NCBI RefSeq assembly: GCF_029962835.1
Contig: NC_080588.1
Span: 47,537,001 to 47,601,000 of the forward strand
Direction of reading: 5' to 3'
From: Magnolia sinica
Lineage: Eukaryota > Streptophyta > Magnoliopsida > Magnoliales > Magnoliaceae
Length of the DNA stretch: 64,000 bases
The notes below the pieces were generated by a model. It had not been told where the DNA came from and did no database searches. It saw only the letters and a list, made by a program, of their open reading frames with translations. Below are positions 16,541 through 42,212 of the stretch, piece by piece. The first letter of the stretch is position 1. Each line of letters starts with the position of its first letter. Made by a program: the position numbers and the translations under genes.

Positions 16541-16865
16541 CACTACCAAAAAAAGGGGCAAAGGCTACAGATAAAATCCGTAGCCATAGACCTATGGCTA
16601 CGGTTTTAGTCCGTAGCTAGTCCGTAACACGACCGTCATCGTAGGTACCATAACAATAGGTCTGGAACCTATGGCTACGGATTTAATCCATAGCTATAGG
16701 TTCAGTAGCTATAGATATAATCCGTAGCAATTATATCTATAGCAAAAACTTCAAATAGCTACGGATATTATTTGTAGCTGAAAGTCCGTAGCAATATGCC
16801 AAAATTGATAAGGCTACACCTGTCTGATTAGTGGCTACGGTCAATATCCGTAGCTATTTTGTACA
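16541..16865. repeat. CACTA 5' subterminal repeats
   Basis: Roughly fifteen copies of 'gctacggat' and variants ('gctatagat', 'atccgtagc') in alternating orientation, able to form hairpins. In CACTA elements such repeats bind the element-encoded TnpA-like protein (family knowledge). Confidence 0.85.
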
Positions 16866-16869
16866 TTAA

Positions 16870-17296
16870 AAAATTAAATCATTTGTTCATTCAGTTACCA
16901 CCTGTATAATCATTCATTCATTCAATTACAATCATTCATTCATTCAATTACAATCCTTCATTCAATCAATTACATCATTCATTCATTTAATTACGATCCT
17001 TCATTCAATCAATTACAATTACAATCAATTATAGTTACAATTACAATAATGCTGAAAATACAAATCTTTAGCTTCATTAGAGAAATGTGCTCGACTTCAC
17101 CCTGAAATTTCAATAACTTCGTATATTCCATCATCCTTCAAACAGTTATGTCATTCATAAATTAGAATGCCCATTGGGGAAAAGAAAGACAATGAAAGAA
17201 GTGCATCACGTATAACCACTTTTTTTTTTTCTTAATGAATTAAAAAAAAACTCAAAGATGAATGAAATTGACATAAACGAAATGGTCTCACCATAT
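16870..17296. repeat. Short 'cattcattcaattacaat' repeats and unassigned sequence
   Basis: 16890-17050 is built from imperfect 'cattcattcaattacaat' units. 17050-17296 is AT-rich with no open frame or motif that I recognise, and runs directly into the TTTAGG array. Confidence 0.7.
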
Positions 17297-20200
17297 GATT
17301 CTAGGTTTTGGTTTAGGTTTAGGTTATAGGTTTAGGTTAAGGTTAGGCTATAGGTTATAATTAAGTTTAGGTTATAGGTTATAGGTTATAGGTTTTGGTT
17401 TAGGTTTAGGTTAAGGTTGAGGTTTAGGATATAGGTTATAGCTTTTGGGAACTTGATTATAGGTTAAAGTTTAGGTTTAGGAAATCGGGTTCGGGTTTAG
17501 GATTGGGTTTTCAAGTTTAGGTTTAGGTTAAGGAGTTGAGATTAGGATTAGGTGTAGGTTTGAGTTTAAGGATTTGAGAATACATTTAGGTTTTAAGTTT
17601 AGGTTTAAGTTAAAGGTTTAGGGAAAGGTTATAAGTTTAGGTTAGGTTTAGGTTTAGGTTATAGGTTATATCTTTAGAGAATTGAGAATGGGTTATAGTT
17701 TAGGTTTAGAAAATCGGGTTCAGGTTCGGGATTGGGTTTAAGTTTGGGTTTTCAAGTTTAGGTTTAGGTTTAGGTTAGGGAGTTGAGATTAGGATTAGGT
17801 GTAGGTTTAGGTTTAGGGAATTGAGTTTAGGTTATAGGTTTAGGGAGAGGTTAGGTTTAGGTTATAGGTTTTGGGATTTGGGAATAGTTTTAGGTTATAA
17901 GTATAGGTTTAGGTTAGGTTATAGGTTAAGGTTTAGGGATTTGAGTTTAGGTTATAGGATTAGGTTACGGTTTAGGTTTAGGTTATAGGTTTTGGGATTT
18001 GAGAATGAGTTCGTGTTTAGGTTATAGGTTTTAGTTTTGGTTTAGGTTATAGGTTTTTGGATTTGAGAATGGGTTCGGGTTTAGGTTATAGGTTTTGGTT
18101 TTGGTTTATGTTATAGGTTTTGATTTAGGTTATAGGTTATAGGTTTATGTTAAGGTTTAGGTTTAGGTTAAAGGTTTTGGGATTTGAGAATGAGTTCAAG
18201 TTTAGGTTATAGGTTTTGGTTTTGGTTTAGGTTATAGGTTTTGGTTTAGGTTATAGGTTTAGATTTAGGTTATAGGTTTTGGGATTTGAGAATGGGTTCG
18301 GGCTTAGGTTATAGGTTTTGGTTTTGGTTTAGGTTATAGGTTTTGGTTTAGGTTATAGGTTATAGGTTTAGGTTAAGGTTTAGGTTTACGTTATAGGTTT
18401 TGGGATTTGAGAATGGGTTCGGGTTTAGGTTATAGGTTTTGGTTTAGGTTATAGGTTTTGAGATTTGAGAATGGGTTCGGGTTTAGGTTATAAGTTTTGG
18501 TTTTGGTTTTGGTTTAGGCTATAGGTTTTTGGATTTGTGAATGGGTTATGGTTTAGGTTTAGAAAATCGGGTTCAGGTTCGGAATTGGGTTTAAGTTTGG
18601 GTTTTCAAGTTTAGGTTTAGGTTTAGGTTAGGAAGTTGAGATTAGGATTAGGTGTAGGTTTAGGTTTAGGGAATTGAGTTTAGGTTATAGGTTTAGGGAA
18701 AGGTTAGGTTTAGGTAATAGGTTTTGGAATTTGGAAATAGTTTTAGGTTATAAGTATAGGTTTAGGTTAGGTTATAGATTAAGGTTTAGGGATTTGAGTT
18801 TAGGTTTAGGTCTATGTTTAGGTTTAGGGAAAGGTTAGGTTTAGGTTATAGGTTTTGTGATTTGAGAATAGTTTTAGGTTATAAGTATAGGTTTAGGTTA
18901 GGTTATAAGTTAAGGTTTAGGGATTTCAGTTTAGGTTATAGGATTAGGTTTAGGTTTAGGTTTAGGGATTTGAGTTAAGGTTATAGGTTTAGGTTTAGGT
19001 TTTAGGTTTAGGTTTAGGTTTAGGTTTGGGTTTTGGGATTTGAAAATGGGTTCGGGTTTAGGTTATAGGTTTTGGTTTCGGTTTAAGTTATAGGTTTTGG
19101 GATTTGATAATGGGTTCGGGTTTAGGTTATAGGTTATAGGTTTTGGTTTTGGTTTAGGTTATAGGTTTTGATTTAGGTTATAGGTTAACGGTTTAGGTTA
19201 AGGTTTAGGTTTAGCTTATAGGTATATGGATTTGAGAATGAGTTCGGGTTTAGGCTATAGGTTTTGGCTTTGGTTTAGGTTATAGGTTTGGTTTAGGTTA
19301 TAGGTTATAGGTTTAGGTTTAGGTTTAGGTTATAGGATTTGAGAATGAGTTCGGGTTTAGGATATAGGTTTTGGTTTTGGTTTAGGTTATATGTTTTGAT
19401 TTAGGTTATAGGTTATAGGTTTAGGTTTTAGGTTTTGATTTTGGTTTTGATTTAGGTTATAGGTTATAGGTTTTGGTTAAGGTTTAGGGAAAGGTAATAG
19501 GTTTTGATTTAGGTTATAGGTTATAGGTTTAGGTTTTAGGTTTAGATTTTGGTTTTGATTTAGGTTATAGGTTATGGGTTTAGGTTAAGGTTTAGGTTTA
19601 GGTTTAGGTTTAGGTTATAGGTTTTGGGATTTGAGAATGGGTTCAGGTTTAGGTTATAGGTTTTGGTTATAGGTTAAGGTTTAGGTTTAGGTTTAGGTTT
19701 AGGTTATAGGTTTAGGGATTTGAGAATGGGTTCCGGTTTAGGTTATAGGTTTTGGTTATAGGTTATAGGTTTAGGTTAAGGTTTAGGTTTAGGTTAAAGG
19801 TTTTGGGATTTGAGAATGAGTTCAAGTTTAAGTTATAGGTTTTGGTTATAGGTTTTGGTTTTGGTTATAGCTTTAGGTTTAGGTTATAGGTTTTGGGATT
19901 TGAGAATGGGTTCGGGCTTAGGTTATAGGTTTTGGTTTTGGTTTAGGTTATAGGTTTTGGTTTAGGTTATAGGTTATAGGTTTAGGTTAAGGTTTAGGTT
20001 TACGTTATAGGTTTTGGGATTTGAGAATGGGTTCAGGTTTAGGTTATATGTTTTGGTTTAGGTTATAGGTTTTGGGATTTGAGAATGGGTTCGGATTTAG
20101 GTTATAAGTTTTGGTTTTGGTTTAGGTTTAGGCTATAGGTTTTTGGATTTGAGAATGGGTTATGGTTTAGGTTTAGGAAATTGGGTTCATGTTTGGGATT

Positions 20201-23200
20201 GGGTTTTAGTTTGGGTTTTCAAGTTTAGGTTTAGGTTTAGGTTAGGGAGTTAAGATTAGGATTAGGTGTAGGTTTAGGTTTGGGGAATTGAGTTTAGGTT
20301 ATAGGTTTAAGGAAAGGTTAGGTTTAGGTTATAGGTTTTGGGATTTGGGAATAGTTTTAGGTTATAAGTATAGGTTTAGGTTAGGTTATAGGTTAAGGTT
20401 TAGGGATTTGAGTTTAGGTTTAGGTCTAGGTTTAGGTTTAGGGAATTGAGTTTAGGTTGTAGGTTTAGGGAAAGGTTAGGTTTAGGTTATAGGTTTTGAG
20501 ATTTGAGAATAGTTTTAGGTTATAAGTATAGGTTTAGGTTAGGTTATAAGTTAAGGTTTAGGGATTTGAGTTTAGGTTATAGGATTAGGTTTAGGTTTAG
20601 GTTTAGGGATTTGAGTTTAGGTTATAGGTTTAGGTTTAGGTTTTAGGTTTAGGTTTAGGTTTAGGTTTGGGTTTTGGGATTTGAGAATGGGTTCGGGTTT
20701 AGGTTATAGGTTTTGGTTTCGGTTTAGGTTATAGGTTTTGGGATTTGATAATGGGTTCGGGTCTAGGTTATAGGTTATAGGTTTTAGTTTTGGTTTAAGG
20801 TTATAGGTTTTGATTTAGGTTATAGGTTAACGGTTTAGGTTAAGGTTTAGGTTTAGCTTATAGGTTTTTTAGATTTAAGAATGGGTTTAGGTTTAGGCTA
20901 TAGGTTTTGGTTTTGGTTTAGGTTATAGGTTTTGATTTAGGTTATAAGTTTTAGGTTTAGGTTATAGGTTATAGGATTTGAGAATGTGTTCGGGTTTAGG
21001 ATATAGGTTTTGATTTTAGTTTTAATTATATGTTTTGATTTGGGTTATAGGTTATAGGTTTAGGTTTTAGGTTTTGGTTTTGGTTTTGATTTAGGTTATA
21101 GGTTATAGGTTTAGGTTAAGGTTTAGAGAAAGGTAATAGGTTTTGATTTAGGTTATAGGTTATAGGTTTAGGTTTAGGTTTTGATTTATGTTATAGGTTA
21201 TAGGTTTAGGTTAAGGTTTAGGTTTAGGTTATAGGTTTTGGGATTTGAGAATGGGTTCGGGTTTAGGTTATAGGTTTTGGTTATGGGTTATAGGTTTAGA
21301 TTAAGGTTTAGGTTTAGGTTATAAGTTTTGGGATTTGAGAATGGGTTCGAGTTTAGGTTATAGGTTTTGGTTTTGGTTTAGGTTATAGGTTTTGGGATTT
21401 GAGAATGGGTTCGGGTTTAGGTTATAAGTTTTGGTTTTGGTTTAGGTTTAGGTTATAGGTTTTTGGATTTGAGAATGGGTTATGGTTTAGGTTTAGGAAA
21501 TCGGGTTCAGGTTCGGGATTGGGTTTAAGTTTGGATTTTCAAGTTTAGGTTTGGGTTTAGGTTAGGGAGTTGAGATTAGGATTAGGTGTAGGTTTAGCTT
21601 TAGGGAATTGAGTTTAGCTTATAGGTTTAGGTTATAGGTTTTGGGATTTGGGAATAGTTTTAGGTTATAAGTATAGGTTTAGGTTAGGTTATAGGTTAAG
21701 GTTTAGGGATTTGAGTTTAGGTTTAGGTCTAGGTTTAGGTTTAGGGAATTGAGTTTAGCTTATAGGTTTAGGGAAAGGTTAGGTTTAGGTTATAGGTTTT
21801 GGGATTTGGGAATAGTTTTAGGTTATAAGTATAGGTTTAGGTTAGGTTATAAGTTAAGGTTTAGGGATTTGAGTTTAGGTTATAGGATTAGGTTTAGGTA
21901 TTTGAGTTTATGTTATAGGTTTAGGTTTAGGTTTTAGGTTTAGGTTTAGGTTTAGGTTTGGGTTTTGGGATTTGAGAATGGGTTCGGGTTTAGATTATAG
22001 GTTTTGGTTTTGGTTTAGGTTATAGGTTTTGGGATTTGATAATGGGTTCAGGTTTAGGTTATAGGTTTGGTTTTGGTTTAGGTTATAGGTTTTGATTTAA
22101 GTTATAGGTTAATGGTTTAGGTTAAGGTTTAGGTTTAGGTTATATGTTTTTGGATTTGAGAATGAGTTCGGGTTTAGGTTATAAGTTTTGGTTTTGGTTT
22201 AGGTTTAGGTTTAGGTTATAGGTTTTTGGATTTGAGAATGGGTTATGGTTTAGGTTTAGGAAATTGGTTTCAGGTTCGGGATTGAGTTTAAGTTTGGGTT
22301 TTCAAGTTTAGGTTTAGGTTTAGGTTAAAGAGTTGAGATTAGGATTAGGTGTAGGTTTAGGTTTCGGGAATTGAGTTTAGGTTATAGGTTTAGGGAAAGG
22401 TTAGGTTTAGGTTATAGGTTTTGGGATTTGGGAATAGTTTTAGGTTACAAGTATAGGTTAAAGTTAGGTTATAGGTTAAGGTTTAGGGATTTGAGTTTAG
22501 GCTATAGGTTTAGGTTTAGGGAATTGAGTTTAGGTTATAGGTTTAGGGAAAGGTTAGGTTTACGTGATAGGTTTTGGGATTTGAGAATAGTTTTAGGTTA
22601 TGAGTATAGGTTAGGTTAGGTTAATAGGTTAAGGTTTAAGGATTTGAGTTTAGGTTATAGGATTAGGTTACGGTTTAGGTTTATGTTATAGGTTTTGGGA
22701 TTTGAGAATGTGTTTGGGTTTAGGTTATAGGTTTTGGTTTTGGTTTAGGTTTAGGTTATAGGTTTTGGTTTAGGTTATAGGTTTAGGTTATAGGTTTTTG
22801 GATTTGAGAATGGGTTCAGGTTTAGGTTATAGGTTTTGGTTTTGGTTTAGGTTATAGGTTTTGATTTAGGTTATAGGTTATAGGTTATAGGTTTATGTTA
22901 AGGTTTAGGTTTAGGTTAAAGGTTTTGGAATTTGAGAATGAGTTCAAGTTTAGGTTATAGGTTTTGGTTTTGGTTTAGGTTATAGGTTTTGGTTTAGGTT
23001 ATAGGTTTAGGTTTATGTTATAAGTTTTGGGATTTGAGAATGGGTTCGGGTTTAGGTTATAGGTTTTGGTTTAAGTTATAGGTTTTGGGATTTGAGAATG
23101 GGTTCGGGTTTAGGTTATATGTTTTGGTTTAGGTTTAGGTTTAGGTTATTGGTTTTTGGATTTGAGTATGGGTTATGGTTCAGGTTTAGGAAATTGAGTT

Positions 23201-23401
23201 CAGGTTCGGGATTGGGTTTAGGTTTAGGTTTTCAAGTTTAGGTTTAGGTTTAGGTTAGGGAGTTAAGATTAGGATTAGGTGTAGGTTTAGGTTTAGGGAA
23301 TTGAGTTTAGGTTATAGGTTTTGTGAAAGGTTAAGTTTGGGTTATAGGTTTTGGATTTGGGAATAGTTTTAGGTTATAAGTATAGGTTTAGGTTAGGTTT
23401 T
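17297..23401 (+). repeat. Degenerate TTTAGG telomere-like array, segment B1
   Basis: 6.1 kb of C-poor plus-strand sequence. It shares the 'gagttgagattaggattaggtg' block with array A but is dominated by a second higher-order type: 'gggatttgagaatgggttcg' followed by 'ggtttaggttataggttttg', repeated dozens of times. Large stretches recur at about 1.2-1.6 kb intervals (compare 18566-19060, 20190-20690, 21510-21960, 22270-22480), so the array grew by segmental duplication. Open frames such as 22371-22619 ('LGYRFRERLGLGYRFWDL') simply mirror the repeat. Confidence 0.92.
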
Positions 23402-26400
23402 TGTAAGCCCCGTATCCTAGACCGTATCGTTCCTTAGACTTCCGCGGTCTTTCCGGTCGAATTCCGGCAACCTTCGACCCTTAACCGGTATTTGTGCGCG
23501 ACCCTGATTCTCATGCCGTCAACCCGAGTCGACTCAACCCAGGACTTGTACCTTAGCGACCGCGTCGTCGCTACAGTTCTGATGCCACGACTCACGCACC
23601 GAGGCGATACCCTGGTCAGGAGATGTGGGCTAGCGTTCGGTGCAAGGAAAACGCCGGGCGTGCGAATTCTGAGAGAATCTCTACGAGATGTCACATCAAT
23701 CCCATCATGTCAAGTACACATCACCTTTCACCCTTTCCTAAGCAAGCCCTAAAAGTCAAAAAGTAAAAGTCAAAAAGCCTCTTACACCCATCACCACCAC
23801 ATCCATCACTCCATCACCCATCACTCCCTCTCTCTCTCTCTCTCTCCCTTTACAACTCTCTCTCTCCTTCTTTTTTTTCAAATCCAATCCAAGCAAGAGA
23901 GCCTCACGTCCAAGCCCTCCCATGGTGAGAAAAAATGCTTATGTGAGGCCCACCTTTCCATCCCTAGATCTCCCATCCTAGCCATCCATTTCTCATCTTC
24001 CTCCATCAAAGAGAAGCACAAGGAGCTAAGGAAGCCAAGGGAGCAAGAAGATCAAGCGGTGGGTGCTTTGATAGGGTAGTTTTTAATGTTTTTAAGATGG
24101 GCCAAGTGAGGCCAACCGATCAATGGTTTGGATCTCACTTTGGACCCTAAGATGTGGCCGATGGCCCACTTGGATCATCATGATCATGCCATGATGGGGC
24201 CATTCTCCATGGACCCCATCATGATGTTTATTTTCTTGCATATTTAGGGTCATCTAGACCGTCTAATTTAGTGGAGAAGGGATCTCCACCATTGGATTTT
24301 GATTTAATGGGCCTATGTGTCATGGGACCCACTTGATGTATGATTTAGTGCAAGGGAGGGCCCATAGTGCCGGGGTCCCTCCATCACGCGGGTCCCACTC
24401 TCTTTCTCTCTCCCTCTCTACTTCCTTTCTTTTTATGTGTGGTGATAATGAAGTTGTGTGGCCCATTAGGTTGGACCCCACCATGAAGTAGGTATCTTAT
24501 CCAAACCATTTATAAGTGGGGCCCACCTTATATGTGTAGTACCCATGCCATCCATCATTTGATGGCCCCCTAAGCAGGGCCCACCCCCAACGCATGTGGG
24601 CTGCAAAACCATCCAGCGTCCCTGGATGCTGGACAAAAAGGGAAAGCACAAATGTTAGCTTCTTAACAAGCATTTAGAGTGACCTACTCTTATAGGGCCC
24701 ACCTTGATGTAGGTATTTAATCCACGCCGTCCATTCCTTTTCCAAGCTTATTTTAGGCGTTGAGCCGAAAGATGGGACCGATCAGACTTTCAGGCGAGCC
24801 ATAACATGGCAAACAGTGGGCTTACTGTTGAAACATCCCCTATTGCTTCTATACACCGAAACAGGCCCAATATTGGGCTTGTTTTGCTTGTCTTGAACCA
24901 TAGAGGGCCATTGGACGGAGTGGATTATCGGACGTGGGCCCCACCTGTGAAAAACCACAGGAAAACATCTTTTTTTTTAAAAAAAAAACCAAAACCATCA
25001 CAGCAGCTGCTGCTGCTGTGTCAGAACGGCAGCAGACGCTGCCTACGCACCAGCACTCGGGCGGATGGGCGGACGTACAGCCACCCACGGCTGTAGCCGT
25101 GGGCCCCACCTTGATGTTCATTTGTCATCTAATCCATTCAAATGGTGGGCCCTAAGGTCAGTGGACCACCCTCCAAATTCCAGGTCCATCCAAGACTCAG
25201 GTGGCCCACACCGTATGAAACAGTGGGATTGAACCTCTACCTTTGAAACCCTTTTTGGGTCCACAGAAGTTTTAGATCAAGGTGAAATTTATTTTCACCC
25301 TTCATCTAGGTCTACTTGACCTTACCAACGGGTTGGATGGCATATCAGACATTATGGTGGGCCCCACATGGAGCCCACAGTGATGTATATGTTTTGCCTC
25401 CACTGTCTAGGCGGACGATGGAGCCCACTGTGATATTTGTGTTCCTGTGCGTGCGTGTGTGGGTGTGTTTGTGTGTGTGTGTATATATATATACATATAT
25501 ATATATAATATTATATTATATATAATATTGTATGTATTGTATATATATATATTATATACTATATTATATATATTTTTCTGGTGGTGGGAGGCCCATCTCA
25601 GTTTACTTATGGCCCGTGGTTGAGGCCCACCTTGATATATATGTAAGGCCCATCTCAGTTTACTTATGGCCCATGGTTGAGGCCCACTTTGATATATATG
25701 TAAGGCCCATTTAAGGTATTCGGGGAGCATGGTTTAAGGCCCATTAAGATGTATTGGGGCCTATGGGTTGAGGCCCATTTGATGTACATTTGGGACCCCA
25801 TTGGTGTGGCCCATTTGATACACATAAGGCCCATGAGATTAGGCCCATTTGATGCATTCTAAGGCCCACGGGTCATGGTCCATTGCAATGCACATAAGGC
25901 CCATTGGTGCGGCCCATTGATGTGGCCTACTTAATGAATATAAGGCCCATATGATATGGCCATTTGATGTATTTAAGGCCCAATGGGATGTACCTAAGGT
26001 CCATTGCAATGTACAATCCCAACATGGGTTATGTAATGATGTTTACGTCGGGCTATGCCTTGGGAGCGATGGTGGTTTGACGTCCACATTGCAAGTATAG
26101 TGTTGGTTAAATGTCCGCATTATGACTCACCCTAGGGCTCATTATAGGCCCGTACGTGTTATGTGTAGGCCGTCTAGGCCCATCTTCGTTATGAACATCA
26201 TCCATCCCATATAACATGTTTAGTTCCATGATTCATGATCATATGCATTATACGTATGCTTGATATGAGAAATGACTGATCATAGCATATGCCTTTGGGC
26301 AGATTGTTTATGCCCGTACAGGGGGTGTTGCCTACATGAGCGCACGATACGCGCAGGATTCCTGTGATAGGATAGTGTGATTCATGCATTCGCATTGTGT

Positions 26401-27430
26401 GATATGGTTCTGTACGCCCTAGCGACATCAGGGCCATAGCCTCCACAGACGTATCGTGGTTGGCAGGATTGGATACCGGAAATACTGTTCTACATGGGGT
26501 GCGATAGATATCCCTGAGTGAAAGTCCCTAAACCCTTATGGTACCAAGAAGTTGCTCCAACGTCTAGACCGAGTGGGTGCATGAGCGCTGAGTGCCGATT
26601 ATCAGACGGTTGCGCTTTCCACTGTGTTGTGGTCGGTTGGAAGGGGGTGCGGCCTTACCCGCCCGAGAGTAGGGGGCAATGCTAGGTTGAGTCTGACCAG
26701 CTCGAGGAATGAATCCGCTATTGACGAGCCGAGCCCGATATTGGTAGGCAGATAGTGAGGTCTTTTCCACTCACCTTATTGTGCGCGATGGGGCAGTAAT
26801 CTGGCTTGGAGTGTACTACACCCCGGTGATATTTCAGATTTTGAGCTGTATCAATATATGGACTTAGATGAGGATTTGTATGCTGAGTTACATTTCGCAT
26901 TACATGGCCTTGGAATGGCCGACATTATTCTTTGCACCGCATGGCCTTGGTACGGCTAATGGTATTCTTGGCATTTATCAGCATGTTCCGCATTACTCTG
27001 ATACTGCATAGCTGCATTACCACCTTGAGCATACACTTTCACCACCCTCTAAGCTTTCTATAAGCTTATGCATAACCATTGCGTGCAGGTGACGTTGGAT
27101 CGCAGCAGCACTGAGGCTTGAGCACGTAGCAGATCTTTTTGGAGCTTTTGGTCTATCATCATTGTATTTCCCTTTATGCTCATTGTACTTGTAAAGTTTT
27201 TGATCATAGTGGAAATGTGATGGAGTTTTTGGTTGTTATTTGTGGGTTATACCTTTGGTTATACTTATTATGAATCAAACTGATGTTGAAAATCCTCCTC
27301 GTAGCATCCCAAGATCGGAACCTGGCGAATGGGCGCTGGGAGCCGAGAATGGGGTTCTACGGAGGCTGTCGGCGCTGGATTCGGCGATTGAGAATTTTGT
27401 GAGCCCGGTTTCCGAGTTTGGGGCTTGACA
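23402..27430 (-). mobile_element. E2: giant LTR-like solo element, inverted, 4.0 kb
   Basis: It reads TGTAAGCCCCG at its plus-strand left end and GGGGCTTGACA at its right end. This is the reverse complement of the E1/E3 ends (E1 'TGTCATGCCCC...GTCTTACA'). It sits inside the TTTAGG array of the CACTA element with an imperfect 5-bp duplication (GTTTT at 23397-23401, GTTAT at 27431-27435). The conserved ORF block is at 26564-26770 on the minus strand, and 'tgggcc'-type repeats at about 25570-26030. It lacks the 'cctcgacaatcgg' array present in E3. As in the other copies there is no polyprotein, so a solo LTR is likely. Confidence 0.72.
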
Positions 27431-28393
27431 GTTATAATTTAAGGTTTAGGGATTTGAGTTTAGGCTATATGTCTAGGTTTAGGTTTAGGGAATTGAATTT
27501 AGGTTATAGGTTTAGGGAAAGGTTAGGTTTAGGTTATAGGTTTTGGGATTTGAGAATAGTTTTAGGTTATAAGTATAGGTTTAGGTTAGGTTATAAGTTA
27601 AGGTTTAGGGATTTGAGTTTAGGTTATAGGATTAGGTTTAGGTTTAGGTTTAGGGATTTGAGTTTAGGTTATAGGTTTAGGTTTAGGTTATAGGTTTAGG
27701 TTTAGGTTTAGGTTTAGGTTTGGTTTAGGTTATAGGTTTTGATTTAGGTTATAGGTTAACAGTTTAGGTTATAGGTTTTTGGATTTGAGAATGGGTTCGT
27801 GTTTAGGCTATAGGTTTTGGCTTTGGTTTAGGTTATAGGTTTTGGTTTTGGTTATAGGTTTTAGGTTTAGGTTTAGGTTTAGGTTTAGGTTTAGATTATA
27901 GATTATAGGATTTGAGAATGCGTTCGGGTTTAGGATATCGGTTTTGGTTTTGGTTTTGGTTTTGGTTATATGTTTTGATTTAAGTTTAGGTTATAGGTTA
28001 GGGTTTTAGGTTAAGGTTATAGGTTTAGGTTAAGGTTAGGGTTTAGGTTTAGGTTAAGGTTATAGGTATAGGTTAAGGTTTAGGTTTAGGTTTAGGTTAT
28101 GAGATATAGGTTTAGGGAATTGAGAATAGGTTAAGGTTTAGGTTTAGGAAATCGGGTTCGGGTTCGGGATCAGGTTTATGTTTGTGTTTTCAAGTTTAGG
28201 TATAGGTTTAGGTTAGGGAGTTAGGATTAGGATTAGGTGTAGGTTTAGGTTTAGGGATTTGAGAATACATTTAGGTTTTAGGTTTAGGTTTAGGTTTTAG
28301 GTTTTAGGTTTTAGGTTAAGGTTTAGGTTTAGGTTAAGGTTGAGGTTTAGGTTATAGGTTAAGGTTTTAGGTCATAGGTTTTGGTTTAGGTTA
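27431..28393 (+). repeat. Degenerate TTTAGG telomere-like array, segment B2
   Basis: Continuation of array B1 after E2. Its last part (about 28020-28390) returns to the higher-order type of array A, including 'gaaatcgggttcgggttcgg' and 'ttagggagttaggattagg'. It ends at 'ggttaagggtatggtccctgc', the same boundary as array A2. Confidence 0.9.
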
Positions 28394-28790
28394 AGGGTAT
28401 GGTCCCTGCAAATACAAATATAAATACAGCCATCCGGTGCAAATGGTCAAGCCCTTCCAATGCTGTCCATAAAAAATGGACAGCTTCATCATGGTCATAA
28501 TAGCGGTTCCCTCTTTCCAGGGAACCCCGCTCTTCCGAATAGCTCCGACGCACATCTAGGTCTGCTCTATTAATTTCGATTAAATACATAAACATGGCCT
28601 GTCTAAATGGCCAGGCCCCTCCAATGTTGTCCATAAGAAATGGACAGCTTCATCATGGTCATAACAGCGGTTCCCACCTTCTAGGGACCCCCACTCTTCC
28701 GGATAGCTCCGACGCACATCCAGGTCTGCTCCATCAATTTCGAGCAGCGGTTCATAAATACGGCCTGTCCAAATGGCCAGGTCACTCAAT
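28394..28790 (-). repeat. Tandem ~165-bp cassette with open minus-strand frame, copy B
   Basis: Two and a fraction copies; 'cttccgaatagctccgacgc' at about 28533 and its partner at about 28697 set the period near 165 bp. The minus strand encodes 'YYDHDEAVHFLWTALEGL' and 'CYDHDEAVHFLWTTLEGP', each preceded by 'DVRRSY' and a 'GSLE.GNR' stretch. Sequence and position relative to the TTTAGG array match 11534-12060 closely. The product is unrecognised. Confidence 0.6.
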
Positions 28791-28940: not shown

Positions 28941-29131
28941 CTGAAAAACCAGCTGAAGCAGATCACTCTAAAAAATAGAAACAGGTGCAAAGGCAACAAC
29001 TATGAAGACAAATTGTAATTAAAGTTTCAACGCTCAAAATAAAAAGAGATGGTATGAAATACCTCAGATATTTCATGGCCAACGTTTCGGACATGAATAA
29101 CCTTAGAAGGCTCTGTCATCTTAGCAGATCT
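28941..29131 (-). pseudogene. PTB3-type polypyrimidine tract-binding protein fragment, captured
   Basis: The minus-strand exon 29063-29131 carries a start codon and reads 'MTEPSKVIHVRNVGHEISE', the N-terminus and first beta strand (RNP2-like 'IHVRNV') of plant PTB homologue 3, an RNA-binding splicing regulator. It ends at a donor GAG|GTATTTC. A second exon, 28941-28967, reads 'SDLLQLVFQ' between AG and GT borders, close to the family's 'NDLLQLFQPFG'. The true protein is over 400 residues with several RRM domains; only about 28 codons remain here. A further small exon-like segment (about 28835-28871) follows but was not assigned. The fragment lies at the downstream end of the captured series, next to the cassette. 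Confidence 0.75.
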
Positions 29132-29994
29132 CTGCAGCAAGCAAAATGGCAGAGAATCCAGGAATTTCACTATTTACTATTGACATACAGGTAAAATATA
29201 GTTGAATTCAATGTAAAGAAAAACAATCACTACCAATTCATGTCATTTACTTCAACATATGAAGTTAGGGGGAAAAAACCAGTAATCTTTATAGATGAGG
29301 GCCATGTAAGCCCAACTTTCATTGATCCAGACCGTACATATGGTGATAACTAGACACTCTAGATCCAGACCGCTGCTAGAAACTAGACACTCTACCCACA
29401 GAAGATTCCAGCCAATCCATGTCCATGGAGAGACCTTTTGAATTAATGAACAATCAAAAGTTTCAATTAAGCAAATCACAAATTAGGTGGCATGGCATGC
29501 AACAAGGTTATTACATGCCATCTCACAAAGACTACACAAAAGGGTGGGCTAAATTAGATGATCCCAGCCCTTTGAGTGTGGGTTTATTTTCTCACCACCA
29601 TCTGTTTTTACATATCATAGATAATTAGCATCATCAAAACCAACAACATATAAGTATACATGTTATCAAATGTACAGTATGATCTAATCACTTTAAGACC
29701 CGGCTGAACATCGAATCTAAATTCTCGAGTTTTTGAACATGTCAGAGTTTCTCTGATGGCAACTCACTATTAGGATTTTATAATGAGGATGGCGTTAGTA
29801 GCTTCCATTGGCCTTCCATGTATACTGAACAGTCCCATAAAGTGGCACACATGAAGAAGATGAGATTTGTACACTATGCATCTAGTGGCCCTGTTATGGA
29901 TGGTATGATGGACCATACAAAAATCACATTGCACTGGACAATACAAACTCACTTGGCTTGTAGATGTTTATAGAACGACACACTTCCCCTTCCT
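29132..29994. other. No recognisable gene; MITE-like fragment at about 29690-29980
   Basis: AT-rich intron-like sequence. A block with repeated 'ctagacactcta' phrases lies near 29350-29395, and the part around 29760-29950 has the look of a decayed MITE. Open frames are short and resemble nothing known. Confidence 0.4.
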
Positions 29995-30059: not shown

Positions 30060-32354
30060 CTAAAAAAGTCAATGAATAACCATTAAAATGCTTCATCTTC
30101 TAGGTTCATTTCCAAGAACTTATATAAGTTCATTTCTTGCTACATCCTTTTGATTCTAAAAATCATTAATTAGAAATGGAACCAATTCTCTGCAAAGAAC
30201 AAAGGTTAACATAGATACTCTTGAACCATGTAAGCAACACTTCAAATACATGAATACTCCAGCTCCAGCTTCTTGGCATTCATGATGCATTACATTCCCC
30301 AATAAAGGCTGCCTACACTAGTTAACAAATTAAATATTTAAAAATGATTGCTTCTGGATGAATAATTGCCTGTGGAATCATGAAAGATTTGAAAATATTC
30401 AAACATATAAGAGAACTATCCTTCTATTTTTGAGGTAGCATTTGGAGTTACTGACAAATCATGGATGACAGTTGGTAGGGCTTTCAGCTACCCACCCAAT
30501 CATAATCATAAACATTTAAAGAATAAATATCGAAATATATAAGAAAAAGAATGAAATAATGATGTAAATGTAAGTTAACTTAATGAAACATATTTTTCCA
30601 AACATGTCATCTTGGCCTTTGGATGAGATATTGATTTAAATGTAAGTTCCTAAGCACACTTCCTTCTTAGGAACTTGCAAACTCCACAAGGAGATCCAAA
30701 CCCTGTCATCTTGGCCTTTGGATGTTTGGTTTTGATATCTTTTCCAGACCAGTGCAAGCACTATCACCATGTTTATAAACACTAGAGAGATAGAAGGTAG
30801 GCCACCTTATATGGATATTTTAAGTACACCTGGTCTGCTAAGTGGCCTTTTTTTTCCTGGATCGACCTTGTTGACTTGCCAAAAACCAATCAGCGAGTGG
30901 ATTTTTTTAGCTCCCATTTCACCAAGTGGTGACCCAATAGAGTTGGCAGAAATGAATCCATGGAGGTTGGCTCAAAACAGCAATTAGCCATCAAAATGCC
31001 CCTTTTGAGGATGCATTGAAACAGGCCCTGAATGAGCAAATATGCATGTCCATGTGTTGATAGACAGGTTTCCATCAATGTTTCATGCATTCCAATCACT
31101 GAAAAACTACAAACTAGTGTTGATAGACAGATTTCTGAAAAGGATTTAATGGTTTTAAATCCATGGTTTTCTGGAAAAGGTCCATTTCCTGGACGTCAAA
31201 TTCAACGGGGAAAGTAAGATGGTTAATACTACTTTTCACAGTGTAAAGTTTCAGTTATGTCTCTTCTTTACCTTCCATTTTCTTCTTAACAAGAAAATCC
31301 ATATTTACTAATATTGCCATTTTTCTATTTTTCAAAAGCATGAGTTTGGATTCCACACTCATTGATGGGGTGTAAATAAAATAACACAGGAGAGAAATTA
31401 TGAGGCCCTGCACATCAGTCGATGTGAGTAGTATAGCACACTCCAAAAGTTGGCTGCCAAGAACTATTTGTCTGTATAAAGAAGAAAACAACACATGCCA
31501 TCACCACCCCCACATACAAGAAAAGGACCGGAGCAGCACTAACAGTAGAGATGCACACACTAATATGAAATGATCAGATTTTTCTCTATTTTTTCCCTTC
31601 TCCATCATAAAACAAGCAGTTATTTCTTTGCAATAGGAATTTGGAAGAAAACAAAAATAAGGGTAAGCACTAGCAAAAAGAAAAATCAGAAGAAGAAGAA
31701 CCATATACTCAGAAGCATGAAAAAGAACTACCAATCAGACCATGAAAAAGAACTAGACCGAAGACCCATTTGTCTTTCAAAATCAAATTCTGAGTTGCTG
31801 GATGAATTTATCTTATATGTAAAATTTATCTCCCAAATTCAAATTAGAGCTTGGTGAATTTTTCCCAACCTAGATCCTAAGTTGTTTAATTTTCTTGTGT
31901 GTAAATTGCTAAATCTGTCACCAAAAATCAGATTCTTCTTCTAGGTGATCAAATTTCTTCTGCCGAATGGTGTTGATTTTTGTGTCTTTCCCAACCTGAT
32001 TCTATATGTGGATTTGTACGTATTTTTTAAAACTTGATTTTTTTTTCTACTGATCTATAGATAAATACCATGTTGACTTTGAATCATCCAAGATCATATT
32101 TTTCCCATTGAATTGTTCTTTGCACACATGCTAAATTTTAATTGAATTGTGACCGTCATTCACAGTAAACTTGCTGGCTTTGCTGAACTTTCAGGGCTCA
32201 CCATATGTGTTGGATCACAAAGCTCCAACTAGTAGAAGTTTTTATCAATATCTGAACCATATATATAAATAACAAATGACATAATACAGATATTAAAGGC
32301 AAGAGAAAGGGAAAGAAAGTTCAGGCAAAGTCATCTTGCAACGAGGAAATTTAC
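30060..32354. other. Captured intron/unassigned sequence, no gene recognised
   Basis: AT-rich sequence with runs of T and A. A 20-bp phrase 'tgtcatcttggcctttggat' occurs twice (about 30605 and 30704), and a similar doublet 'gttgatagacag' at about 31058 and 31120. No exon could be placed with confidence in six frames. Confidence 0.4.
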
Positions 32355-32505
32355 CTGTGTAAAATATGTAATCAACTGTGCCATTGAAATCTCTAGTGCA
32401 GTTTGTGAACTACGGTTCATTAGTCGTGGGGTCCATTTTCCTTCTTTGTTGCTCCAAACCAATTCTAACTCCCACCATCCTTACAAAGGATGAGTATGCA
32501 CTGAC
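32355..32505 (-). pseudogene. CCR4-type deadenylase exon fragment, captured
   Basis: The minus-strand exon of 151 bp lies between TTACAG and GTAAAT borders. It reads 'AYSSFVRM..', then 'LEQQRRKMDPTTNEP', a stop (TAG) and 'FTNCTRDFNGTVDYIFYT'. This matches the C-terminal part of the exonuclease-endonuclease-phosphatase domain of plant carbon catabolite repressor 4 (CCR4) homologues, which shorten mRNA poly(A) tails. The family normally has 'NEPLFTN', so one codon (Leu) has become TAG. The catalytic 'SSDHIAL' part further on is missing. Same strand as the PTB3, WD40, GIP1 and CK2 beta pieces. Confidence 0.8.
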
Positions 32506-33480
32506 CTGTAACAAACACATTGTCACAACTTGTGCAAAATAAGTGGGTGGTTCAAGGGAAGTGGCAGCAGGCTGAAGTTTTACCATTGGAAGTTGATGAG
32601 TTCATTTGTTTGCAGGATGCAAGATTCCAAGAGTGTCTACTGTCAAGTAAGGATGCAACTCATCCACCTTCCCCATAGCCAGATGTTCATTCAACATTTG
32701 TGATGTAAAATTATACATTGGGAATTGCAAAGAATGCAAAGAAATCAATTGACACTGTGAATTGGAAAAATGAAAAATTGAAGATCATCTATTCTGAAAT
32801 TCCACATAGAAAGCACACACCTTCCCAGCAATCAATTTAATCCTCATAATGCTAATAGTTTTACATGTACTTCCATGAATGACTTCGGAACCTTTTGCAT
32901 TCTTTGTCAAATGATGGAAAGCTATTTCACCCTACGAACATTAAAATAATCTGAAAGAGATTGCTTGATCACAGCCAAATCCAACAATAAATAAAACATG
33001 CCACCAAATTTCATGGAATGGAATCATATACCTACTTTACACACAACAACACCCCTATATGAAGTGTAACTAGAGCACATTCTCCACTTCAATGGATTCA
33101 ACTTTTGCAACATAAGCAAGTAAAAATCAAGCCATAAGTCAAACTGAAAAGAGTGCTCAACTAAGTTACAATTTGGGTGTGGCGGTAAGGATTTTTTTTT
33201 CTTTTTCTTTTTTACTTTTTATGGCATTACTATGAGGGATTTACAAACTATTGCAGTAAATAAATGGAGATATGCTGTCTGTGACTCTGCATGTACATTA
33301 ACATTACAATAACATATGAACAACATTTGCAAGACAATTCATGAAGGTCTTGCAGGATACACTATGGTATTATTACCAACTCAATGATATCAACATGCAC
33401 AAAAAATAACATAAACTATCTTAACCAGAAATAAAGTCACAATGCGATAACATGCCAATCATTATACAAAGCATTGTTAC
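32506..33480. other. Unassigned captured sequence
   Basis: No convincing exon. A small segment at about 32615-32652 on the plus strand is flanked by GCAG and GTAAGG and could be a micro-exon, but its translation is uninformative. Confidence 0.3.
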
Positions 33481-33618
33481 ATGATTAATCCCGAGAACAA
33501 CAAGGAAGAAAATGTGAGGGACCAGCTAAACAAGGGCATTGTACCTGATGACATTGATGTTCATTGCCTAGCAGGTCTAATTAAGGCCTGGTTCAGAGAG
33601 CCTCCTGCAGGAGTACTC
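33481..33618 (+). pseudogene. RopGAP (CRIB/RhoGAP type) exon fragment, captured
   Basis: The plus strand reads 'INPENNKEENVRDQLNKGIV' and 'PDDIDVHCLAGLIKAWFREP', then 'PAGVL' and a GTACTC donor-like site. This is the central part of the RhoGAP domain of plant Rop GTPase-activating proteins, whose usual text is 'GIDVHCLAGLIKAWFRELP'. The second residue of the conserved LP is kept but Leu is Pro here. The arginine finger lies in an upstream exon that is absent. This is the only captured fragment on the plus strand, opposite to its neighbours, so it could not be read as sense in a common minus-strand transcript. Confidence 0.82.
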
Positions 33619-33681: not shown

Positions 33682-33810
33682 CCACTTGAGTTCTTTGAAA
33701 CCCGTACCATAAAGCTTGAGTTGTGTTTCAAGATCATGGCTCCCACTCGAATCACCTCCACTACTGCCAACAGGCTGTTTATCAATCAACCGCCTCCTTT
33801 TCTTGGTCAT
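33682..33810 (-). CDS. Possible exon beginning MTKKRRR, unassigned
   Basis: The minus strand from an ATG at 33810 reads 'MTKKRRRLIDKQPVGSSGG' and on to 'HDLETQLKLYGTGFKELKW', then a donor-like G|GTTTTTC. The frame is open, with a basic start and a hydrophilic Ser/Gly linker. It looks like a real N-terminal exon of a nuclear protein, but I do not recognise the family. It could belong with the WD40 piece just upstream or be a separate capture. Confidence 0.35.
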
Positions 33811-34148
33811 CGCTTCTTCAAGAATTCAACTTATCAAATATCAAAATACTATCAAACAGATCTCAAACCAATTTCCAAAGAAAAGCAACTTTAATTCAAT
33901 GAAATCATCAATGAAAATAGAGAATTCTGCATGAAAAAACACTAAAAAAAAAAATGAACTTTTTCTGTGGCACTCTTTCTTTGCACCAAGGCCACATCTC
34001 TTCTGGTAAGCTTTCACGTCAAATTAATGTCTATGATAACCATCAGTAATTTTTCAGCAACGATCCAGAATAAGAAAGAAAGAACCAACATACAAAGGTG
34101 AAAGAGAAGGAATAAACATACACAAGTGTAAGACATGCAAAGTTGTAG

Positions 34149-34346
34149 GGTCTCTCCAATTACAGCTAGCAAATGTCTTCTTTGCACACACAACACAATT
34201 CGATAATGATATTCAGACAATCACTGTAAGAGTCTCTCCAATTACAGCTACAAGAACATTTGTGTCTAGGTCCCATAAAGTGACAATATCCTCTGCAGCA
34301 ATATAGTTAGAACAGAGCCATCGCCAGAAAATACAGCAGTTGTCAT
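34149..34346 (-). pseudogene. WD40-repeat protein fragment (WDR75-like), frameshifted, captured
   Basis: The minus strand reads 'MTTAVFSGDGSVL' in one frame and then, after a short frameshift near 34300, 'AAEDIVTLWDLDTNVLVAVI' plus 'GETL' in another. 'FSxDGSxLAVAAExxVTLWD' is a WD40 blade, closest by memory to plant WDR75/UTP17-like nucleolar proteins of small-subunit rRNA processing. The end of the exon, 'tctctccaattacagcta', is repeated 82 bp further on (34149-34168 versus 34231-34250). It is a broken copy; family WD40 is fairly sure, the precise member is not. Confidence 0.6.
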
Positions 34347-34459
34347 TGACCTTTTCTTGCATGGAAATCAAGTTCTCAATCAGAACGTGGACTAGAGCAG
34401 TCCAATCTCTGTCATTTTTGGCTCATTGCTCACCAATGTAGTGACAACTGGTGCATAGT

Positions 34460-35276: not shown

Positions 35277-35535
35277 CTTGAAGAAGGCTCCTTAGCTGAC
35301 TCTTCGATCACCTAAGATGACTCAGACAAAGGTGTAGAGCTCTTGTCAGTATTTGGGCCATTTGTGAAGATTGCATTAAGCCCAAAACTAGCATCAAAGC
35401 TTCCGAAACTCAATCCACTTCTCTCAGCTTTAGGGACATGAAGATGGTTTGGAATGATGACGTGTTTGTCTGAGAAATGCAAATCCTCTAGCTTCTTTTC
35501 CAGCTTCACTATTACCTCTTGAGTCTGCAGCACTA
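35277..35535 (-). pseudogene. GBF-interacting protein 1-like (GIP1L) fragment, captured
   Basis: The minus strand reads 'VIVKLEKKLEDLHFSDKH', 'VIIPNHLHVPKAERSGLSFG', 'SFDASFGLNAIFTNGPNTD' and 'KSSTPLSESS', then a TAG stop, then in the same frame 'VIEESAKEPSSR' before a donor-like AAG|GTCTGA. The 'HVIIPNHLQVPEAERTGLSFGSFDASFG' region is characteristic of plant GIP1-like (DUF1296) proteins, which interact with G-box binding factors. There the equivalent text is 'SSQVVEE', so the stop is a CAG to TAG change. The N-terminal UBA-like domain and the Pro/Gln-rich tail are absent. Confidence 0.82.
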
Positions 35536-35878
35536 GATGCAGATAGTGACTGAGAACTGACTTCTTAGTAGCCTTGATGCATAAATCAATCAAGCAAAAC
35601 TCAATGACCCAAACTTGAATCAGCCGTATTTTCAAAGCACAATTTGACATGCCCGTGCAGCAAATGTTTATAAAAAGATCAACCATTAAACCTTTGAAAT
35701 GAGTTGTATATTCACATTTTGAACTTTATCTTGGCACATACAACTGAACAAGCAAAATAAATTCAGATCAGCGCAACCGCTTTTAGTGTACTATGAAGTC
35801 AGATTCTAAGGTTTTTTTTTTTTTTTTGAATGGTAGCTAGTAGCTACTAAGAAGTCAAAGAGTGAAGTTTTGTATGAA

Positions 35879-35880
<2 letters not shown>

Positions 35881-35955: not shown

Positions 35956-35962
<7 letters not shown>

Positions 35963-36162: not shown

Positions 36163-36394
36163 GACTAAAATCATCCACTCAAAGAGTCATCATCCAAGAT
36201 CATATCCAAGGCATAATCATAATAGGGAACCTATCCTTGCAGTCCACATAAATTGAAGTCGTCTTGTATATAATCCTCATCAACTTCACAAAGGAGCTCA
36301 TTTCCTCTCAAGCCACAGAACCAAGAGATCCATGATGAATCATCTCCCTCAGAACAGCTAACTTCTGTCTCTTCGCTGCCTGTCTCTGAGAGGT
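36163..36394 (-). pseudogene. Casein kinase 2 regulatory subunit beta fragment, captured
   Basis: After an acceptor-like TTTAAAG, the minus strand reads '[19 protein letters not shown]', '[20 protein letters not shown]', '[15 protein letters not shown]', a TAG stop, then in frame 'VPYYDYALDMILDDDSL'. This is the acidic loop and the start of the conserved core of CK2 beta, the regulatory subunit of protein kinase CK2, whose plant form reads '[48 protein letters not shown]'. The stop replaces the Gln of 'SSQVPYY' (CAG to TAG). The zinc-finger half is missing. It is the most leader-proximal fragment recognised. Confidence 0.88.
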
Positions 36395-37324
36395 CTTTAA
36401 AATAAAAATAACCCAGTTCAGAAATTAGGATTCAGAGAAATAAAATAATGCAAAGATATAAGAAAAGATATACCCAGAACAAGTTGTTAGGAGAAAAGGC
36501 CTTTTATTTGAGACAAGCAAATGCATTGCAATGAATTTAAGACCATCCAAGTGCTAAAGCAGGCTTCAACAGTAACCAAGTGTTTCAAATAAATGCAGTT
36601 TTTTCATATTAAGATTGGGAACAAGTTGTGACTAGAGAATTGTGGGAAAAGAATAGCTCCTTCAAACGCCACGACCCCGCGTTACAGGTGAATCTATTTT
36701 TGGGAAATATATTGCATGCAAAGGAGATTGACCTTATCATATTTCATAATCTATCATCCAAAAAACAAAAAGCATGTCATTCTAGTTCAAAAACAGAAAT
36801 TTCAGCCTATCTACATGTCATGTTCGTTGCCAAGATATATATATTCATCTGTTGTGTTGTAGCTCACCCTATAGTTGCAAAAAAATCATCTACCATTTTT
36901 TCCTGCTTCATAATCTCACAATTCCTACAAACTTTGGGCTTCAAAATGGTTATTTACTACTAGTTTCTGCATCCACTCCCACAACCACTTCCTACTATTT
37001 TTAGCAGCTAAGGTTCAGCTTGAGTGATTAAGATATCCATCAGTTATATGTATTCAAGAGGAACTATCCACATTCGCTGAAAAAGGCTACAGATTGGTGG
37101 CTAGGATCTCTCAATCTTGGGAGATTTTTTTTTAGTTTGGTGCATCCATGGTGCACCATCCACAACACAACAGACCGATGATCTGGATCAGTGAACCATG
37201 GCCCCACTTATACAAACCGAAAACCTGATTACACTGCATTAACTTTGGGTCGGGGATCAAATATTTCCTCAACATTCTATCAGCTATTTTGGACTGCTTA
37301 GGTTCAGCTGTGTATTAGACCCAA
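36395..37324. other. Unassigned captured sequence
   Basis: A plus-strand frame at 36628-36963 is open for 111 codons but has no family signature and lies in AT-rich sequence. 37090-37300 contains short 'tggtgcatccatggtgcacc' self-complementary sequence. Nothing else is recognised. Confidence 0.35.
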
Positions 37325-37405
37325 CTCCCTAAATCCCTAAATCCCCACATCCCTAAATCCCCAAATCCCTAAATCCCTAAATCTCCAAATCCCTAAATCC
37401 CCAAA
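37325..37405 (-). repeat. 'ctaaatccccaaatcc' tract
   Basis: Short tandem run of 'ccctaaatcc' / 'ccccaaatcc', the complement type of the TTTAGG arrays. It is placed between the leader and the captured exons exactly as 14200-14442 is in the other locus. Confidence 0.85.
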
Positions 37406-37425
37406 TCGTTTCAATTGGTATTGAG

Positions 37426-37426
<1 letters not shown>

Positions 37427-37481
<55 letters not shown>

Positions 37482-37705
37482 CACCGCATATTCAAGTTCG
37501 CGGTTTGTCTTTTGACCTCAATCCCATCCAGACGGATCGGTTGACGTCGTATCTCCACCTTCTCCTTCTTCTTCTCCTTCTTGCAGCGAAAGGGGGTTTT
37601 GAAAACCCTAGCGAGAGAGACAGAGAGGTTGGGAAACAGAGAGGGAAATGGGGCTGAGAGATAGAGAGAGGGTGAGGGAGCGCGAGAAATCGACAGAGGG
37701 CTGAG

Positions 37706-37745
<40 letters not shown>

Positions 37746-37860
37746 CGGAGAGGGCGAGGGAGGGTGAGTCACGTGTGGGCGAGAGAGAGAGAGGGGAGGC
37801 ATTTGCTTTTGTGAAATTGGGTGCACAGGAGAGGTGTGCGGGAGGTGCACGGACGGGATT
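37427..37860 (-). promoter_or_regulatory. CT-rich leader / candidate promoter of the captured series
   Basis: On the minus strand it contains (CT)n runs (complement of GA at 37427-37478 and 37708-37743), 'ctctctctgtttcccaacc' and 'gctagggttttcaaaacc' (near 37595-37612), followed by a 'gaaggagaagaagaagg' tract. Such sequence is typical of plant 5' leaders with a 'ctagggttt' motif. It lies upstream of CK2 beta, GIP1-like, WD40, CCR4 and PTB3 pieces in their orientation and could start a chimeric transcript. No clear TATA box. Confidence 0.45.
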
Positions 37861-37869
37861 TGAGCGGTG

Positions 37870-38200
37870 ATTTATTTTAGGACTTGTGGGACCCACCGTT
37901 GTGTATGTTAATTATCCACTCTGTTCATTCATTTTAATGAATCATTTTTAGGGTTTATTCAAACAATGAGTCGCATCTAAGATTTAGGTGGACCACACCA
38001 CATATTAACGATGTAAATTTATTTTTCATTCTTTCTCATGGTGTGGTCCACTTAGACTTTTGATCTTTATAATTATTGGGCTCATGCACTGAAATGATAT
38101 TTCAAAATTTATGGACCTATTAGATAAAATAAATATACTGCAATGGGCCCCATGGAGCCCCTTAAGCATAGTCAAGTTCCTATGGGGAGCTGTGTTTTAG
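37870..38200. repeat. MITE-like sequence inside the CACTA 3' region
   Basis: 'gtgggacccaccgttgtgtatgttaattatccac' to 'aatgggccccatgg' follows the layout of the dispersed 'gggcccacc...gtccat' family, including 'gtggaccacaccaca' and 'tggtgtggtccacttaga'. It lies just inside the 3' subterminal repeats. Confidence 0.6.
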
Positions 38201-38204
38201 CTAC

Positions 38205-38315
38205 AGAGTAAGTATGTTTTAGCTACGGATTAAATCCGCAGCTAATTAGCTACGGATTAAAGCCGTAGCCATAGAGCTACATAGTCCGTAGCGTTTGCTC
38301 ATTTTTTTGGTAGTG
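38205..38315. repeat. CACTA 3' subterminal repeats and terminus
   Basis: About seven copies of 'gctacggatta' / 'ccgtagc' in both orientations lead to the terminal TTTTTTTGGTAGTG, matching the 5' end motif. Confidence 0.88.

Positions 38316-42166: not shown

Positions 42167-42212
<46 letters not shown>

Follow-up and report, generated by a model that had tools for sequence, protein, structure and literature searches.

Structure of the element

The 64,000 nucleotides of Magnolia sinica analysed here (the window, G000:C16:47537001-47601000) belong to a host genome of 1.84 Gb in 127 contigs, labelled C1, C2 and so on; on each of C1-C19, matches lie farther than 60 Mb along, suggesting 19 chromosomes. 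Positions 16541 to 38315 of the window form a single, non-autonomous CACTA element, in which exon pieces of six unrelated host genes lie between terminal inverted repeats. A preliminary description had reported such an element; the observation is confirmed, and its extent goes beyond what was described.

The sequence CACTACCAAAAAAA at the left border and its reverse complement at the right occur nowhere else in the window, which bears out the perfect 14-bp ends reported earlier, and the repeats begin with CACTA, as in the superfamily of that name. Both flanks read ATA (ATA/CACTA...TAGTG/ATA), so that the 3-bp target-site duplication also stands. The subterminal 'gctacggat' arrays of the preliminary description correspond to 13 GCTACGG/CCGTAGC motifs, nine within 700 bp of the left end and four within 700 bp of the right, the interior having none, giving the short subterminal repeats at both ends that are expected of CACTA elements; the rest of the window holds one further motif, at 44784. 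Additionally, GCTACGGAT occurs eight times in the window, compared with 0.11 expected.

From left to right, the element is composed of a subterminal array, split TTTAGG arrays, 164-bp repeats, the gene pieces (spanning 28948-36460), a GA-rich stretch and the second subterminal array (Table 1). The degenerate TTTAGG array totals about 7.1 kb between 17302 and 28396, and the bases flanking the long terminal repeat (LTR)-like insertion that splits it, GTTTT and GTTAT, match inexactly. When ATG, GTG and TTG starts are admitted, the element contains three open reading frames of at least 120 amino acids, the longest of 137. No transposase of the TnpD-like kind that mobilises CACTA elements was recognised among these three frames; the full length of the element was not screened with transposase profiles, and the genome was not searched for one.

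Gene pieces and their source genes

Host coding DNA lies between the ends, as in Pack-CACTA elements, and all six sources named earlier (PTB, CCR4, RopGAP, a WD40 protein, a GIP1-like protein and CK2 beta) hold, with weaker naming for the GIP1-like and WD40 pieces. The CK2 beta assignment is strong, with E values of 1.9e-17 in PDB and 2.7e-10 in Pfam. The PTB piece gave no Pfam match and in PDB only an RRM at E 0.45. The CCR4 piece gave E 0.39 in PDB, nothing in Pfam and no candidates in a large protein search, and a PDB search with the CCR4 sequence from other copies was empty; against a plant CCR4 sequence, the window piece scored E 3.5e-13. The RopGAP piece reached 0.0025 for the Pfam RhoGAP domain, under the cut-off, and only a chance match in PDB (E 0.37), with E 3.9e-16 to a RopGAP domain in a search of its own genome. 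The WD40 piece, joined over its frame break with an X at that position, matched many WD40 proteins in PDB, and unjoined it had no Pfam match. The exon that we take to be GIP1-like is coding and conserved, with 15 relatives (the best at E 4e-20), and Pfam alone gave no name to it. The preliminary description had also noted at least two unassigned exon-like pieces, one of which is perhaps the piece designated MTKKRRR.

Source genes are present elsewhere in the genome, again as in Pack-CACTA elements, at the DNA level for CK2 beta, PTB and CCR4 and through one 104-bp exon for RopGAP. For CK2 beta, all 68 candidates of the genome search were scored and yielded 65 matches, 18 of them in four multi-exon genes or later exons and 47 restricted to exon 1. 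The window piece gives an ungapped alignment with the C5 gene for CK2 beta (C5:102514035-102514320; 279/286, 97.6%), including about 60 bp of intron, compared with 87% for the C3 gene and 75% for the C18 gene over slightly different stretches; the fetched C6 stretch contained no match. The PTB piece matches C19:137008-137411 over 403 bp (386/405, 95.3%), directly upstream of the exon of that gene for residues 43-73, and the other C19 gene reaches 76% at most; the comparison covered these two C19 genes and left out the first exon of the C10 gene. The CCR4 piece aligns without gaps to C5:30662886-30663362 (450/477, 94.3%), as against 77% over a shorter stretch of the C13 gene, the C2 gene being outside this comparison. 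For RopGAP, the best real exon belongs to a C14 gene (100/104 over window positions 33483-33586).

Since the best source sites are on separate contigs or widely spaced on the same one (CK2 beta at 102.5 Mb and CCR4 at 30.7 Mb on C5, PTB at 0.137 Mb on C19, the RopGAP exon on C14), the possibility raised earlier that the cargo is one contiguous host locus is ruled out.

The RopGAP piece differs from the PTB, CCR4 and CK2 beta pieces in lacking an intron. An intron follows the residues LIK in all three RopGAP genes inspected (C14, C6 and C19), whereas the window piece continues as LIKAWFRE, reading on through the intron site; it was therefore spliced, or derived from an intronless relative. Longer RopGAP matches, continuous over about 360-450 bp, were also observed at C5:14294015, C8:75214456, C11:60018875, C4:60394068 and C3:58285694, the first four less than 1 kb from a CCR4 match and the last about 14 kb from one. 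At the C5 locus as read, window positions 32215-33617 are contiguous (1339/1403). The RopGAP matches adjoining CCR4 possibly represent the precursor of a CCR4+RopGAP module.

Two open GIP1-like genes, on C10 and C9, were found together with two distant relatives, and 36 further matches occur at 35 places, a TAG being listed in 35 of the 36. WD40 gave 102 genome matches (150 of 151 candidates scored), among which no single source was singled out, and MTKKRRR gave 98 (109 of 109 scored). Because 69 of these 98 start 401-791 bp from a WD40 match, both pieces probably travel as one module. Their matches, about 100 each, fall into several identity groups (for example, C10:55989319 and C4:30231620) and exceed those of the other pieces searched, so that the WD40+MTKKRRR module may be the oldest. 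A second group of CK2 beta matches restricted to exon 1 was observed at C19:68868947, C19:68315301, C20:18681, C12:64756483, C6:60737287 and C14:26673923. One locus read from it (L046) is 91% identical to the C5 gene over 492 columns, and the group is perhaps the result of a second capture.

Sister elements and amplification

The 14-mer CACTACCAAAAAAA has 1,660 occurrences in the genome (806 + 854), compared with 115 (62 + 53) for the reversed pattern used as a control. Sister elements were sought among the first 100 of these end sites, all on C1, where five facing pairs within 25 kb were found and fetched (A to E). Their 3-bp duplications match in every case (TGT, AAC, TAA, CCA and CGA), which rules out the other objection foreseen, namely that the two ends belong to different elements; a repeated family with the same ends, a further mark of Pack-CACTA elements, is thus present. 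In sister E, an additional right end lies farther out, with a mismatched flank. In all five, as in the window element, every subterminal motif is within 700 bp of an end (for E, the nearer one), and TTTAGG arrays are present in A, B and C and absent from D and E.

The search for sister copies by their ends recovered both the same and different cargo. Sister A carries the window cargo from 28401 to 36581 at 96.6-97.8% identity, in pieces and with gaps, beside an unsplit TTTAGG array, unlike that of the window. Its right module also differs from that of the window, being a 1,360-bp segment with a fructokinase-like piece (Pfam PfkB 0.0035, below the cut-off). This segment recurs at 95.5-98.8% identity in seven of the individually fetched genome loci (their numbers prefixed with L), namely L028-L033 and L037. 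Sisters B and C have left ends about 91% identical to that of the window, together with common repeats, and lack the window gene pieces; B carries a GH31 piece (Pfam 6.9e-19), and C a weak coiled coil of no specific family. Sister D has a weak Pumilio-like match (0.039) and, of the window cargo, only an 87-bp stretch matching 31426-31509. Sister E, whose ends are more distant, contains pieces of EF2 (4.9e-27), DUF3223 (2.7e-25) and zinc dehydrogenase (1.9e-10) and none of the window cargo. Among open reading frames chosen by eye for Pfam, host domains therefore exceed the cut-offs in two of the five sisters; A has the window cargo, and the other two are only suggestive.

The patchwork itself is repeated. 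A GIP1-CK2 stretch of 1,551 bp recurs, over at least 1,432 bp, at 28 places; one of these is the window, and the other 27 show 93-97% identity. Since 40 of 100 candidates were scored, 28 is a lower bound. Close to this stretch, a CCR4 match occurs within 6 kb at 27 of the 28 places and a WD40 match within 5 kb at all of them, with MTKKRRR at 26 and RopGAP at 22; the RopGAP count used 23 of 62 matches, picked by eye as element-like, and PTB exon 1 was too short for such counting. The order from PTB to CK2 is collinear in all seven places other than the window that were read over 10-15 kb (A and L028-L033), although L029 and L031 are without some inner parts, and the window stretch at about 30.6-31.2 kb is absent or shorter in them. 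Thirteen of the 28 places, including these seven, end at 36581 as A does, and 15 continue as the window does; among the latter, the window was read whole and nine (L019-L027) for 1.5 kb on either side.

Differences from the source sites that are fixed in all copies number 5 in 276 columns for CK2 (18 copies), 8 in 394 for PTB (7 copies) and 18 in 409 for CCR4 (8 copies). Eighteen copies were offered to this comparison, and those with less than 85% of a piece covered, mostly through unfetched sequence, were dropped (none for CK2, 11 for PTB and 10 for CCR4). The mean distance to the source is 3.7%, 3.7% and 5.7% for CK2, PTB and CCR4, respectively, compared with 2.4%, 1.8% and 1.2% among the copies. 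Together, these values fit one capture of each piece, with amplification afterwards.

Probable assembly and spread of the cargo

The window element is very probably a non-autonomous Pack-CACTA element whose interior was assembled stepwise, from separate genomic fragments and partly from segments also borne by other transposons, and was then spread by transposition. The ends would be moved by a CACTA transposase supplied from elsewhere. The interior would have been built in steps, the PTB, CCR4 and CK2 pieces entering with intron sequence and the RopGAP piece without it, part of it being drawn from segments that are also found on other transposons, and the finished patchwork would have been carried by transposition to at least 28 places. 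The ends, duplications, sisters, best source sites of three pieces, fixed differences and a cargo junction common to another family (described below) were observed directly. The capture step would have consisted either of fusion and re-mobilisation of neighbouring insertions or of gap repair. Fusion of neighbouring insertions has been proposed for capture by Pack-TYPE elements in PMC8903248, and gap repair is cited as a capture route in PMC8978399.

Several points weigh against stepwise assembly followed by transposition. Both ends were read in six elements only, and 20 of the 28 places were read in part or are known only from their search matches. The place at C13:47719916 has no CCR4 match, and L037, a locus not counted among the 28, combines the right end with some of the cargo and shows no PTB or CCR4 match in its stretch. 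Among the 26 places at which the CCR4 exon was matched, one TAG is listed in 24 and none in the other two. Furthermore, the CCR4 site at C5:30.66 Mb may itself be a fragment, as it matches only residues 208-352 of the 352-residue query and contains one TGA, and the GIP1-like and WD40 source genes were only located or matched, outside the DNA-level comparison.

Cargo beside the ends of other families

Parts of the cargo were also found beside CACTA-like ends of other families. Four loci (L034, L035, L036 and L040) have only the GIP1 part in common with the window (35168-35880 and 35983-36171). The similarity begins at a CACTA-like end, which reads CACTACGCCAAAATCGCGG in L034, CACTACGCCAAAATTGCGG in L036 and CACTACGCCAAAATCGTCG in L040, and 131 bp inside in L035. 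Three others (L038, L039 and L041) contain parts of window 33.6-34.7, 35.5-35.9 and 36.0-36.3 kb; the similarity between L038 and L039 stops at CACTACAAGAAATCTCACTTTTAGCGACGA in L039, an end that is adjoined by ten copies of TAGCGACGA, is degraded in L038 and lies beyond the read in L041. Of these seven loci, only L035 contains the GCTACGG/CCGTAGC motif, in a single copy. Cargo segments, including the GIP1/CK2 junction, are thus located beside the CACTA-like ends of other families, with one end read per family.

On the simplest reading, capture draws on genes and other transposons alike, and a source that is repeated is taken up more frequently. Whether distinct CACTA families share a growing stock of captured pieces, with modules (WD40+MTKKRRR, GIP1, GIP1/CK2 and CCR4+RopGAP) exchanged and recombined, patchworks built combinatorially as transposons take up one another's cargo, and one piece passed through RNA, is a question on which we are evenly divided.

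Two other accounts of the same loci have to be weighed. The chimera could be a duplicated locus that was not a transposon, from which different CACTA families each took parts, and the reading of a single end per other family would agree with this; no such locus was recognised among the matches listed (40 of 100 candidates scored), and the account is considered unlikely. Alternatively, the other families could have captured the same host genes independently, with no transfer of cargo. The roughly 100 matches of WD40 and of MTKKRRR, in several identity groups, indicate that some genes may have been captured repeatedly. However, L038, L039 and L041 join the GIP1 side to CK2 at the same base as the window (36171/36175), in register with it, and two such captures are unlikely, making independent origin a rather improbable explanation.

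Coding state of the copies

It is also conceivable that selection acts on a chimeric transcript or protein made by the element. All of the six named pieces except RopGAP share one strand, a GA-rich, leader-like stretch is located upstream at 37400-37800, and splice sites are preserved around the CCR4 intron, at the exons of PTB and on the upstream side of CK2, in an assessment that did not extend to GIP1 and WD40. In eight copies, PTB exon 1 and MTKKRRR are open in all, CK2 (broken in the window), RopGAP and GIP1 in seven each, and the first part of CCR4 in five. However, the second CCR4 exon has a stop at the identical place and the WD40 frame is broken in all eight, so that a working fusion gene is not supported; moreover, RopGAP is antisense, the downstream splice donor of CK2 is lost at the piece border, and the window copy of CK2 has a stop of its own. 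A selected product is accordingly very improbable, and, taken together, the cargo was probably already non-coding when amplification began. The preliminary view of an unusually active exon-shuffling vehicle is therefore upheld in that the patchwork is repeated in the genome, and is weakened by the identical breaks in CCR4 and WD40. An assembly artefact or a pair of unrelated ends, which the length and repeat-rich nature of the element might suggest, is hardly credible, given that sister A has the same ends and cargo with its own TGT duplication elsewhere and that the cargo is repeated in L028-L033.

Comparison with known systems

Helitrons are not known to have terminal inverted repeats or a target-site duplication, and the window element has both. 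Maize Helitrons reportedly capture gene pieces stepwise, and in this respect they resemble the present element.

CACTA elements with several captured genes are already known (PMC1947982, PMC5105172, PMC8903248). Tgm-Express1 of the soybean wp allele, a 5.7-kb CACTA element, carries both exonic and intronic pieces from five host genes unrelated to one another (PMC1947982). The window element is similar in carrying exon and intron pieces of several unrelated genes, but unlike Tgm-Express1, which is described as an insertion in one gene, it draws on six genes, extends over 21.8 kb and has its cargo at no fewer than 28 places, parts of it beside other CACTA-like ends. The Tpn1 family of Japanese morning glory comprises 339 copies that reach 40,619 bp in length and almost always have 3-bp duplications (PMC5105172), and is comparable as a CACTA family in which the ends are conserved and the interiors contain captured genic sequence; cargo common to several families, which is seen here, is unmentioned in the excerpts of that account. 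Coding pieces between CACTA ends are likewise a feature of Pack-CACTA and Pack-TYPE elements (PMC8903248), from which the present case differs in that cargo from several genes recurs as one unit and is found in part beside the ends of other families. In CACTA-like elements of Chenopodium, captured gene pieces and satellite arrays occupy opposite parts of the element (PMC8978399), an arrangement also found here, with the array on the left and the cargo on the right, although each Chenopodium element has few captured genes and the array is different.

What appears to be new is the combination, in one genome, of a repeated six-gene cargo with partial combinations and sources, an intronless piece, and cargo common to families with different ends. 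Among the papers listed in literature searches on gene pieces in CACTA elements, no account of cargo common to several CACTA families was recognised, which does not prove that there is none, and searches on Magnolia with CACTA elements and on telomere-like arrays provided nothing useful. The assembly of multi-gene cargo by transposons has mostly been deduced from end products. Here, the end product, partial combinations (CCR4+RopGAP; GIP1 alone; WD40+GIP1+CK2) and several sources coexist in one genome, so that the order of assembly, the mechanism of capture at each junction and the passage of cargo between families become testable by alignment. The element thus illustrates how patchworks of gene pieces can be put together and disseminated by transposons.

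Table 1. Coordinates in the window of the CACTA element, its structural parts and its gene pieces
Feature	Positions	Strand	Remarks
Target-site duplication ATA, left	16538..16540	.	flank read
Whole CACTA element	16541..38315	.	21,775 bp
Left terminal inverted repeat CACTACCAAAAAAA	16541..16554	+	sequence match
Left subterminal array	16576..16854	.	9 GCTACGG/CCGTAGC motifs
Degenerate TTTAGG array, part 1	17302..23401	.	
Nested LTR-like insertion (TG...CA)	23402..27430	.	~4.0 kb, splits TTTAGG array
Degenerate TTTAGG array, part 2	27431..28396	.	
164-bp tandem repeat	28440..28781	.	present in sisters A, B, C too
PTB piece	28948..29350	-	exon 1 (MTEPSKVIHVRNVGHEISE), intron sequence, splice sites, start of exon 2
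CCR4 piece	32214..32690	-	parts of two exons and intervening intron
RopGAP piece	33483..33617	+	opposite to other five named pieces; crosses intron position without intron
MTKKRRR exon-like piece, possible splice donor	33698..33811	-	open in 8/8 copies, 98 genome matches
WD40 repeat piece, frame broken	34256..34360	-	
GIP1-like exon piece	35315..35571	-	
CK2 beta piece	36175..36460	-	exon and ~60 bp upstream intron; one stop in window copy
Right module of window copy	36582..37580	.	
Right subterminal array	38222..38292	.	4 GCTACGG/CCGTAGC motifs
Right terminal inverted repeat	38302..38315	-	perfect 14-bp complement; sequence match
Target-site duplication ATA, right	38316..38318	.	flank read

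Neighbourhood of the element

To the left of the element, positions 1-14860 form a second block of similar layout, with a GAGACGGTC motif near position 17, TTTAGG arrays at 579-1746 and 7916-11527, AAATCCC repeats and a GA-rich stretch. The 164/167-bp repeat of this block (11541-11919) is 85% identical to 28410-28787. Coiled-coil exons at 12960-13640 appear kinesin-like by eye, and Pfam gave no kinesin match for the one piece tested. This block may represent a CACTA element that is related to the present one and carries a different cargo. An array of motifs of the GAGACGGTC type, in both orientations, is present at 44097-44460, where no CACTA end was seen; this stretch could be the other end of the left block, with the 16541-38315 element nested within it. 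Additionally, in a self-comparison of the window with arrays masked, related LTR-like sequences with partial similarities are located at 23402-27430, 1747-7899 and 38682-43475, one of them splitting the TTTAGG array of the element and another that of the left block.

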